From the NCBI RefSeq assembly GCF_002075885.1, contig NZ_MDET01000056.1, forward strand, positions 124,001 through 188,000: a stretch of 64,000 nt of DNA, written 5' to 3'. The DNA is from Manganibacter manganicus (lineage in GTDB: Bacteria > Pseudomonadota > Alphaproteobacteria > Rhizobiales > Rhizobiaceae). Positions 22,076 through 23,826 of this stretch are shown here, in pieces. Under the pieces are notes generated by a model. It saw nothing but the letters and a program-made list of their open reading frames with translations, searched no databases and was not told where the DNA came from. Every line of letters starts with the position of its first letter. The first letter of the stretch is position 1. Both the position numbers and the translations under genes were made by a program.

Positions 22076-22103
22076 GGAACCTTTTCAACCGTTCGCCATC
22101 CAA
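22076..22103 (+). promoter_or_regulatory. Sigma-factor promoter-like element 1 (before the ECF sigma gene)
   Basis: GGAACCTTT at 22076-22084, a 12-base spacer, then CATCCAA at 22097-22103. An identical pair of blocks with identical spacing lies before the DUF4142 gene (22848-22875). GGAAC is a typical -35 for ECF sigma factors, so the likely reading is an autoregulated ECF promoter. The element starts 44 bases before the sigma gene. Confidence 0.65.
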
Positions 22104-22119
22104 GGGAACGGAGGATGTC

Positions 22120-22824
22120 ATGCCGCAAACGAGACAACAGAAACAACAGCCCCTTTTCGATGCCACCGATGCAACCCTTGTTCGCCTCGCTCTATCGCGC
22201 GAGGCAGAAGCATTTCGTGTCATCATGACACGCAACAACCAGCGGCTTTACCGCATGGCGCGTGCCATTCTGCACAATGACAGCGAGGCTGAGGATGCGC
22301 TGCAGGATGCCTATATGCACGCCTTCGCGCGGCTCGAAAGCTTTCGTGGCGATTCCGCGCTGGCAACATGGCTGTCACGCATTGTCATCAATGAAGCGCT
22401 GGGGCGCCTGCGCGAGAAACGCCGCGAAGCCGAAAGGAGATTTCCAACCGAACAGACGGTGCCGGACGCGCAGATCATACGCTTTCCCGTCGCCACGAGC
22501 GCCGACGATCCGGAGCGGAACATGGCACAGCGACAGATACTCGAATTGATAGAGCGGACAATGGACGGCCTGCCCGAGAAATTCCGCGTCGTCCTTATGG
22601 CGCGCACGATCGAAGGACTGAATGTCGAGGAAACGGCGGAACTGCTCGGCATCAAGCCCGAGACCGTGAAGACGCGGCTATATCGAGCCCGCAGGCTGCT
22701 GCACGAAAAGATCGACGAACAGATCGGACCGGTCATGCTCAACGCGTATCCTTTTGCCGGGCGCCGCTGCGAACGTGTCACAGAAGCGGTGCTTAGCCGA
22801 TTGGCCCTCGAAACACAGGGTTAG
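22120..22824 (+). CDS. ECF-family RNA polymerase sigma factor
   Basis: A 234-residue group IV sigma factor. Sigma region 2 is at about residues 30-95 (DAYMHAFARLESFRGDSALATWLSR) and region 4 at about 155-210 (LPEKFRVVLMARTIEGL, ELLGIKPETVKTRLYRARRLL). A C-terminal tail of about 25 residues carries FAGRRCERV. The frame is open further upstream to 21940, but GGAGG before ATG 22120 decides the start. No anti-sigma gene is adjacent, which is unusual. The shared promoter-like motif before this gene and before the DUF4142/cupredoxin pair suggests it activates itself and them. Confidence 0.93.
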   Translation: MPQTRQQKQQPLFDATDATLVRLALSREAEAFRVIMTRNNQRLYRMARAILHNDSEAEDALQDAYMHAFARLESFRGDSALATWLSRIVINEALGRLREKRREAERRFPTEQTVPDAQIIRFPVATSADDPERNMAQRQILELIERTMDGLPEKFRVVLMARTIEGLNVEETAELLGIKPETVKTRLYRARRLLHEKIDEQIGPVMLNAYPFAGRRCERVTEAVLSRLALETQG

Positions 22825-22847
22825 ACCGCCCGATCAGTGAAACCGCG

Positions 22848-22875
22848 GGAACCTTTCTTTAAACAACACATCCAA
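22848..22875 (+). promoter_or_regulatory. Sigma-factor promoter-like element 2 (before the DUF4142 gene)
   Basis: GGAACCTTT at 22848-22856, a 12-base spacer, and CATCCAA at 22869-22875, matching element 1 in both blocks and in spacing. It lies about 25 bases after the sigma factor stop and 44 bases before ATG 22919. Confidence 0.65.
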
Positions 22876-22884
22876 TCGGGTGCT

Positions 22885-22904
22885 GGGTGCACGAGGCTGC
22901 ACCC
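22885..22904 (+). promoter_or_regulatory. Leader hairpin before the DUF4142 gene
   Basis: GGGTGCA and TGCACCC form a perfect 7-bp stem around a 6-base loop, ending 4 bases before the AAGGAG ribosome binding site. It may protect the 5' end of the mRNA or modulate initiation. Confidence 0.45.
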
Positions 22905-22918
22905 GAAAGGAGATCATG

Positions 22919-23443
22919 ATGATAAAGACACTGCGTATGATCCTGGGCGGCACCTGCCTTCTGGTAATGGCCGGGCTCGCTCAAGCTGCCGATAAGCCGA
23001 ACGATGCCCAGATCGCACATATCGCCTATACGGCCGGGGTCATCGATATTGATGCCGCCAAGCAGGCAATCAAGACGTCCAAGACCAAACTGGTCGTGGA
23101 CTTCGCCAAGGACATGCTGCGCGATCACGAGGCGGTCAACAAGCAGGCCCTCGACCTGGTCAAGAAGCTCAAGGTCACGCCCGAGGACAATCCCACCTCG
23201 CAGGCGCTGACCAAGGCTGCCGAGGCCGAACGAGAAAAGCTCGCCAAGCTCCAGGGCGCCGCGTTCGACAAGGCCTACATCATCAATGAGGTGGCCTTCC
23301 ACAAACAGGTTGATGATGCACTCAAGACCGTGCTCATTCCCTCGGCAACCAACCCCGAACTCAAGAGCCTGCTGGAAACCGGCCTGAAGATATTCGAAGG
23401 CCATGAGCAGCACGCCGAAATGGTTGCTGCCGAGATGAAATAG
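22919..23443 (+). CDS. Exported DUF4142 family protein
   Basis: A 174-residue predicted periplasmic protein. The signal peptide ends at about GLAQA-AD. The mature part is almost all helix, with the DUF4142 pattern: HIAYTAGVIDIDAAKQA, VVDFAKDMLRDHEAVNKQAL and a C-terminal FEGHEQHAEMV rich in His and Glu. The fold resembles ferritin-like four-helix bundles, and the His/Glu content would suit metal binding, but no metal site is proven. ATG 22919 has better spacing to AAGGAG than ATG 22916. The cupredoxin gene follows 2 bases later. Confidence 0.87.
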   Translation: MIKTLRMILGGTCLLVMAGLAQAADKPNDAQIAHIAYTAGVIDIDAAKQAIKTSKTKLVVDFAKDMLRDHEAVNKQALDLVKKLKVTPEDNPTSQALTKAAEAEREKLAKLQGAAFDKAYIINEVAFHKQVDDALKTVLIPSATNPELKSLLETGLKIFEGHEQHAEMVAAEMK

Positions 23444-23445
23444 CG

Positions 23446-23763
23446 ATGATGGCGAAACATATTTCGCTGATTGCGGGTGTTTTCGCACTGGCAAGCAGCG
23501 TATTGCCGGCACACGCCAGGACGATACAGGTCACCGTCACGGGGATGGCCTTTTCTCCGGCATCGGTGACGGCGAGCGTCGGCGACACGATCGAGTGGGT
23601 GAACAAGGACCCATTCGCCCATACGGCAACCGTCAAGGGAGCCTGGGAAGTGATGCTGCCGGTAGGCAAATCGGCAAGCAAAGTGATAAAGAAGTCTGGC
23701 ATGGTCGATTATTATTGCCGCTTCCACCCCAATATGAAGGGCCGGATCACCGTGACACCTTGA
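23446..23763 (+). CDS. Small exported cupredoxin (blue copper protein)
   Basis: A 105-residue single-domain cupredoxin with a signal peptide ending at about residue 24 (PAHA-RT). Type 1 copper ligands fit His59 (PFAHTATV), Cys91, His94 and Met97 (CRFHPNMKG), the pseudoazurin/plastocyanin order. It is presumably a periplasmic electron carrier or copper-binding protein. It is cotranscribed with the DUF4142 gene behind the ECF sigma factor; partner enzymes are not in the window. A strong terminator follows. Confidence 0.92.
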   Translation: MMAKHISLIAGVFALASSVLPAHARTIQVTVTGMAFSPASVTASVGDTIEWVNKDPFAHTATVKGAWEVMLPVGKSASKVIKKSGMVDYYCRFHPNMKGRITVTP

Positions 23764-23785: not shown

Positions 23786-23826
23786 AAACGGGCGACGGAG
23801 AAACCCGCCGCCCGTTTTGATTTTCG
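23786..23826. terminator. Rho-independent terminator between cupredoxin and hydrolase genes
   Basis: AAACGGGCG (23786-23794) pairs with CGCCCGTTT (23809-23817), with an inner CGG/CCG extension and a TTTTGATTTT tail. It can serve both the plus-strand cupredoxin transcript and the convergent minus-strand gene. Confidence 0.8.

Follow-up and report, generated by a model that had tools for sequence, protein, structure and literature searches.

A predicted ECF29 sigma factor regulon in Manganibacter manganicus and its candidate link to a distant copper operon

A 64,000-nucleotide stretch of Manganibacter manganicus DNA (hereafter the window; contig NZ_MDET01000056.1, positions 124,001 to 188,000 of the forward strand) carries a gene for an extracytoplasmic function (ECF) sigma factor, followed by genes for an exported DUF4142 protein and a small exported cupredoxin. 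The element GGAAC-N16-CATCCAA stands before the sigma gene (P1) and before the DUF4142 gene (P2), and a close variant precedes a copper operon elsewhere in the same genome. Our reading, to which we give a probability of roughly two in three, is that these sites mark a small autoregulated ECF29 regulon: the sigma factor, of the RpoE8 type, would transcribe its own gene and the DUF4142-cupredoxin pair from GGAAC-N16-CRTCCAA promoters, and also the distant PCuAC-YcnI-CopCD operon, whose site closely follows a CruR-like leader open reading frame (ORF). Judging from gene content, the output may be the supply of copper to periplasmic cuproproteins.

The arrangement of element and genes, which had been noticed from the sequence alone, has already been described as ECF29 (PMC6180224; this and the other papers cited are used in excerpt), and the window locus is a further member of that group. 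What is new here is the confinement of the element to the sigma locus and the copper operon in the genus sample and to sigma-bearing genomes in the order sample. For a group with a known promoter but no target detected in the excerpted part of PMC6180224, the comparison yields a short, unusually clean list of candidate targets. It points to copper supply and singles out one residue and one intergenic arrangement.

The sigma locus and its two promoter elements

The locus comprises the following features.

22076 to 22103, + strand: P1, ECF29-type promoter element GGAAC-N16-CATCCAA, 44 bases before the sigma ATG at 22120
22120 to 22824, + strand: ECF sigma factor of 234 residues (Pfam and NCBIfam), with sigma2 at residues 37-102 and sigma4 at residues 142-194
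22726 to 22821, + strand: C-terminal tail of the sigma factor, residues 203-234, with PFxGxRC; Cys217 is the sole cysteine of the protein
22848 to 22875, + strand: P2, ECF29-type promoter element GGAAC-N16-CATCCAA, 68 bases before the DUF4142 ATG at 22916
22916 to 23443, + strand: exported DUF4142 protein (PF13628, 117.7 bits)
23446 to 23763, + strand: small exported cupredoxin (PF13473, PF00127)

The sequence-only reading had noticed that the element occurs twice in the window, and it does. In its longer form, GGAACCTTT-N12-CATCCAA, it has exactly two copies, both on the forward strand, a number that stays the same when two mismatches are allowed; 100 dinucleotide shuffles of the window gave a mean of 0.02 copies, at most one and never two. 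The genome search proposed at that stage returned no exact copy beyond these two in the whole 4.84 Mb, and the reversed pattern returned none. Chance origin of the repeated element is ruled out by the shuffles together with the genome-wide count. The core GGAAC-N16-CATCCAA has two exact copies genome-wide and 24 with one mismatch (counted by hand from the list). Allowing two mismatches gave 175 + 161 sites versus 97 + 90 for the reversed control, which is too noisy, and interpretation is limited to sites with zero or one mismatch.

P1 is predicted to be the autoregulatory promoter of the sigma gene. The distance of 44 bases to a start codon, claimed at first for both copies, is correct for P1. 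At P2, no start codon is found at +44; the ATG, preceded by an AAAGGAG ribosome site, follows after 68 bases.

The known counterpart is RpoE8 of Sinorhizobium meliloti 1021, to which the window sigma factor is 56.5% identical over 91% of the query. According to the excerpt of PMC6180224, RpoE8 belongs to ECF29, promoters lie before rpoE8 and before SMb20593-amcY, and the regulation is called a mystery; 5'-RACE (rapid amplification of cDNA ends) mapped an rpoE8 start carrying GGGAAC/GCATCCAA, and a near-perfect copy of the element precedes SMb20593-amcY. In our reading of the S. meliloti locus, the two published elements are present and the sigma gene is followed directly by a DUF4142 homologue. 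Common to both organisms are the gene order (sigma factor, DUF4142-type protein, amicyanin-like cupredoxin), GGAAC-N16-CATCCAA at both positions and the lack of an anti-sigma gene. Both P1 and P2 have the core; GGGAAC keeps its outer G only at P2, and both lack the outer G of GCATCCAA. Membership in ECF29 agrees with an architecture of sigma2 and sigma4 only, with the relationship to RpoE8, with the adjoining DUF4142 (SMb20593-type) and amicyanin-type genes and with the lack of an adjacent anti-sigma gene (by eye). The conserved sequence PFxGxRC beyond sigma4 fits an ECF with a C-terminal extension. Two other families, ECF26 and the general stress sigma, were ruled out by promoter and neighbours.

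The gene identities first read from the sequence were all recovered, by Pfam for the three genes and by the NCBIfam model NF008888 for the sigma factor (292.6 bits; cut-off, 204). The cupredoxin scored 31.2 bits against the NCBIfam amicyanin model, under the cut-off of 110.2. The DUF4142 protein had no match in the NCBIfam search and no significant one in a search of PDB sequences (best E, 0.87). Across 49 sequences, HTAT and CxxHPxM are conserved in the cupredoxin, and the DUF4142 protein conserves histidines in DHEAVN, xxYHK and GHxQHAE motifs. The type-1 copper ligands H, C, H and M are present in the cupredoxin. Directly 3' of the cupredoxin gene, at window positions 23787 to 23819, a GC-rich inverted repeat followed by TTTTGATTTT was seen by eye, a terminator-like end for the putative DUF4142-cupredoxin transcript.

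Distribution of the element and the copper operon

The association of the predicted promoter with the sigma factor is well supported by comparison among genomes. We scored the 49 loci of the close clade with fetched DNA (families f1, f2, f35 and f50, one metagenome-assembled genome and five plasmids), allowing spacers of 15-17; a search for related loci with a single sigma sequence gave one locus. Of the 49 loci, 40 have an element with at most one mismatch before the sigma gene; the DUF4142 gene has one before it in 45 of the 46 loci in which that gene lies directly downstream. Because CGTCCAA is the best −10 match of the sigma promoter in 12 of the 49, the −10 consensus is given as CRTCCAA. 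It is distinct from the CGTT of the general stress sigma, as had been pointed out from the window.

Across the order (249 genomes, 111 genera), the strict motif was present in 10 of 24 genomes with a sigma homologue at E <= 1e-30 and in 0 of 225 without one (Fisher, 9e-12), figures for which the scoring of sigma candidates was incomplete in many genomes (e.g., 11 of 27), so that a homologue could be missed. The reversed control appeared in 1 of the 249. A family sample of 61 genomes had the sigma factor in 11, the strict motif in nine and the reversed control in one.

Among 61 genomes of the genus, we found 101 strict sites. The sigma gene has 29 of them before it and 44 directly behind it, as a rule in front of DUF4142; 22 precede PCuAC-YcnI, and six others are less than 3 kb from a sigma gene. 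None of the 101 lay elsewhere, and the reversed pattern had no site. This placement used 54 of 56 sigma places, two partial matches being left out, and a subset of 27 YcnI places; the omissions could only inflate the count elsewhere, which was zero. Sigma factor and motif occurred together in 47 of these genomes, the sigma factor alone in one, the motif alone in two and neither in 11 (ancestry not corrected). The best matches in the 13 genomes without the sigma factor reached about 30% identity and, at best, an E value of about 1e-16.

The copper operon of the window genome consists, by Pfam, of PCuAC (140 bits), DUF1775/YcnI (158.2), CopC (77.8) and CopD (74.8). Its site, GGAACCT-N14-CGTCCAA, lies 83 bases before the PCuAC ATG and has one mismatch, in the −10; it went unmentioned in the sequence-only reading. 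The pattern GGAACCT-N14-CRTCCAA, picked after this site was seen, occurs exactly three times in the genome, at P1, P2 and the PCuAC site, with about 0.07 expected and none for the control. A cleaner estimate comes from the 26 sites of this genome with at most one mismatch: the chance that a given 100 bases of one strand contain such a site is about 3e-4. Over the three sites, the −10 stands 16-55 bases from the start codon. The earlier idea of a small sigma regulon is supported insofar as the element travels with the sigma factor, and corrected insofar as the element is not limited to two places: it precedes the copper operon here, and in relatives it is also found before genes for Rieske/FAD oxidoreductase, folE and HPP.

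In the genus, the 22 strict copper sites stand 645-716 bases before the YcnI match, two of them in genomes lacking the sigma factor. Eight of these loci were read, with Pfam run on three representatives; a PCuAC-type gene follows the site in each, and then YcnI- and CopC/CopD-type genes where the stretch reaches. Upstream of PCuAC, a motif with at most one mismatch was found in 33 of 41 sigma-positive genus genomes; with 200 letter-shuffled motifs the count averaged 0.02 and never exceeded 2. In 36 aligned upstream cases, conservation covers the −35 and −10 columns, is lower in the spacer and is lacking in most flank columns; the alignment windows were placed by best match, which makes this partly circular, whereas the shuffled-motif control is not. 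The PCuAC start was not found in five sigma-positive rows, including two second copies, and one sigma-negative row of the first upstream scan, in four sigma-positive and four sigma-negative cases of the column-conservation scan and in 8 of 56 genomes of the shuffled-motif scan. Outside the genus, where the copper link is patchy, genome G033 has the exact core of the PCuAC site, and Ensifer adhaerens CTYH.Ch1 and Sinorhizobium chiapasense have it with a single mismatch.

Alternatives to a copper-supply regulon

Several results weigh against a regulon that runs from this sigma factor to the copper operon. In S. meliloti, the excerpt of PMC6180224 reports no SMb20593 start, no target changed by 126-fold overexpression of rpoE8 and an increase of amcY in an rpoE8-SMb20593 deletion. 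In S. meliloti 1021, no element precedes the YcnI genes, and its pSymA YcnI operon differs in this from the operon of the window genome and of many genus genomes. Neither is there one before YcnI in S. meliloti 1132, Shinella zoogloeoides, Roseateles sp. XES5, S. fredii NGR234, Rhizobium phaseoli or Aminobacter SR38 (the sigma factor was seen for two of these six plasmid loci). Over sigma-positive genomes outside the genus, the element is absent from 10 of 11 YcnI loci within 1.5 kb upstream, a range in which a farther promoter could be missed; YcnI was found in 11 of 25 such genomes, one of 12 loci (G031) being partial. The distant sigma clade (36-46% identity) includes many loci without the element (L008, L011, L013, L014, L193 and L195-L201). 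Finally, G056 of the family sample has a strict site without a sigma factor at the threshold. That site (L081, G056:C91:4612-4639) lies inside a coding-looking stretch and is probably a chance occurrence.

Loss of the sigma factor within the genus adds to these points. Ten sigma-negative genomes have a readable leader; the PCuAC site is perfect in two (G069 and G117), has one mismatch in two (G072 and G099) and has three or more in six. The site is thus kept within one mismatch in 4 of 10 genomes without the sigma factor, versus 36 of 45 with it, a modest contrast (Fisher p 0.018, ancestry not corrected) that gave p values of 0.033, 0.053 and 0.33 at three other thresholds. These figures suggest only weakly that sigma loss erodes the site. 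The 36 of 45 and 4 of 10 were counted by hand from the leader-anchored list, taking at most one mismatch at spacing 16 or an exact match at spacing 17 (G075, G094 and G101). The G085 site and the G077 mismatch value come from other scans, the leader ORFs of both being spurious, and G084 (sigma-negative, no leader found) is left out.

Some of these observations would suit a different sigma factor. The −35 sequence GGAAC is common to EcfG-type promoters, and EcfG-type sigmas are general in the order; such a factor might read the promoters, leaving the adjacent sigma idle or with other targets. Yet the −10 CRTCCAA is not CGTT, and for all the generality of EcfG, the strict element is found in none of the 225 order-wide genomes without an ECF29 sigma. 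The S. meliloti rpoE5 promoter does contain GGAAC, and overexpressed RpoE8 had no targets there (both in the excerpt of PMC6180224); the two sigma-less genomes with a perfect PCuAC site point the same way. Nevertheless, strict sites in the genus occur only beside an ECF29 sigma or one copper operon, and P1 and P2 accompany the sigma gene in families f1, f2, f35 and f50. We consider reading by another ECF sigma improbable. Less probable still is an operator function, with a classical regulator binding the element. Although the case for a promoter rests on sequence conservation, two blocks 16 bases apart, a less conserved spacer and 16-55 bases from −10 to start fit an ECF promoter, the regular companion of the element is a sigma gene, and the mapped S. 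meliloti rpoE8 start fits as well (PMC6180224).

ECF29 might, alternatively, have its two local promoters only, the PCuAC site being an inherited relic or used otherwise. The missing site before the YcnI operon in S. meliloti and most other sigma-positive genera examined favors this, as do the 4 of 10 sigma-negative genomes that retain it. We nonetheless think it rather unlikely, given that the genus keeps the −35 and −10 columns over the flanks (with the circularity noted above, from which the shuffled-motif control is free), that the site recurs in G033, E. adhaerens CTYH.Ch1 and S. chiapasense and that it is one of just three GGAACCT-N14-CRTCCAA sites in the diverged window genome.

If the sigma factor does transcribe the copper operon, copper supply need not be the purpose. 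The regulon could serve copper detoxification or periplasmic redox stress: genes of Rieske/FAD oxidoreductase, folE, HPP and globin type carry the element in some relatives, and Myxococcus CorE is a copper-responsive ECF sigma activated by Cu2+ (PMC8999054). We hold this to be doubtful. PCuAC serves haem-copper oxidase assembly, YcnI and CopC are copper-binding, and such operons occur with CruR homologues (PMC9426467); no efflux or multicopper-oxidase gene was seen behind the elements that were read, which take in part of the 101 sites. No publication linking ECF29 to copper turned up in a literature search that did not extend to subscription papers, among them the 2021 ECF re-classification. 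Since rpoE8 is raised in nitrogen-fixing nodules (PMC6180224), a link of ECF29 to copper delivery for low-oxygen respiration would matter for symbiosis.

Leader ORF, sigma tail and further carriers of the element

The copper operon of the window genome is headed by a leader ORF.

G000:C8, locus L112, 3347 to 3724, − strand: CruR-like DUF2946 leader ORF, ending NPRAPPAA, before PCuAC-YcnI-CopCD

It narrowly passes the DUF2946 profile (25.2 bits; cut-off, 23.7), has RAPP at its C terminus and, lacking CXXC, carries CCAFGC instead (CCxxGC, of the CxxxC type). The ECF29-type site starts 16 bases behind it. From 56 genus loci we obtained 55 leader ORFs, of which those of G085 and G077 were spurious; the other 53 all show CCxxGC and RAPP by eye, ending NPRAPPxx. 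Where a sigma-positive genome has a good site, 5-18 bases separate its start from the leader stop codon before it.

In Bordetella pertussis, the DUF2946 protein CruR is a copper-responsive leader, in which copper relieves the arrest at RAPP and Rho then terminates transcription before the next gene (PMC9426467); the arrest at RAPP was demonstrated in vitro (PMC12992588). By analogy, the leader ORF is a probable copper-responsive arrest-peptide attenuator. It resembles CruR in heading a copper operon, in its cysteine pair and in its C-terminal RAPP, which follows the last cysteine by 46 residues (hand count), compared with 45 in CruR (PMC9426467). It differs in its cysteine motif, CCxxGC rather than CXXC, which is closer to the CxxxC used by Rhodobacter CutF (PMC9973294). 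A second difference from CruR is the ECF29-type element behind the leader stop codon in the window genome. We take the copper-starvation operon of Bradyrhizobium japonicum to be pcuABCDE, with PCuAC among its products. This operon for oxidase biogenesis likewise has a cruR-homologue leader at its head, and no ECF29 control of it is described in the excerpt of PMC9426467.

A transcript from a promoter behind the leader stop codon would skip the leader, and this internal promoter would bypass the leader's copper-dependent termination. If so, an alternative sigma factor would be used to override a translational attenuator.

As for the sigma factor itself, the sequence-only reading had seen no adjacent anti-sigma gene, and the ORFs on both sides, judged by eye (profile searches covered the three genes), likewise include none. 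It had also called the mode of control unclear, for which a lead now exists in the conserved C-terminal tail with its one invariant cysteine. Cys217 is found in every one of the 70 alignment rows long enough to include it, one further row being truncated, and 62 of the 71 rows have a single cysteine in the aligned part; the alignment probably counts the window sequence twice. For the 24 solved sequences that matched the sigma factor, the best stretches extend no farther than query residue 205. An AlphaFold model of the sigma factor made from two sequences was too poor to use (mean pLDDT, 49.7; tail, <50). ECF29 appears in a table of PMC8999054 among ECFs with regulatory extensions, under the mechanism "Others".

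The PFxGxRC tail, with its lone invariant cysteine, may hold the sigma factor inactive until a copper or redox signal arrives, which would fit the lack of targets upon rpoE8 overexpression in S. meliloti. CorE and CorE2 of Myxococcus xanthus (ECF44 and ECF238) offer a parallel, with no anti-sigma, a cysteine-bearing C-terminal extension and a metal link (PMC8999054). The parallel is one of features, and the extension of the window sigma factor differs in being about 30 residues long, with one cysteine and no cysteine-rich domain. Micro-oxia as the signal is a guess, prompted by the nodule expression of rpoE8 (PMC6180224) and by a single unverified record with cbb3 oxidase and globin neighbours. 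The full scheme, in which ECF29 is a copper-supply sigma factor, the cysteine tail replaces an anti-sigma and a promoter between leader and chaperone operon overrides termination, is put forward tentatively, and we would sooner expect it to fail in some part than to hold as a whole.

The cupredoxin gene is a frequent partner of the sigma gene in both clades. At distant-clade loci (L006-L013, L079, L170 and L171), one operon holds a TTHB210-like or DUF4142 gene, a cupredoxin gene and the sigma gene, in that order. Several of these loci have the element in front of the TTHB210-like or DUF4142 gene, some 1 kb before the sigma gene; others lack it. TTHB210 is controlled by sigma-E in Thermus. Two ECF29 copies per genome are present at G066:C37 and G111:C3 (L072-L075), of which L073 and L075 appear to share the trpS neighbourhood of the window sigma gene (by eye, from antisense ORFs).

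Further genes carry the element in relatives. Within the genus, a Rieske/FAD oxidoreductase gene divergent from the sigma gene does so at L074 (Pfam), L072 and L044 (by eye), and a Rieske-like ORF with the element was seen by eye in another genus, about 33 kb from the sigma gene (L077, G031). The GTP cyclohydrolase I gene folE stands immediately upstream of the sigma gene at L044 (Pfam), L037 and L043 (by eye), L168 and L214; the element at L037, L043, L044 and L168 has the form GGAACCAATCC..GCATCCAA, and an annotated folE with the element is present in Mesorhizobium sp. B2-1-8. Two elements of genome G089 agree in every letter with those of this Mesorhizobium strain, which suggests that the sampled genus is probably Mesorhizobium as GTDB defines it. 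An HPP-CBS protein gene carries the element at L076. At L176 (G310), in another family and far from the sigma gene, the element precedes a gene for a bacterial globin, whose Tat-like signal was seen by eye.

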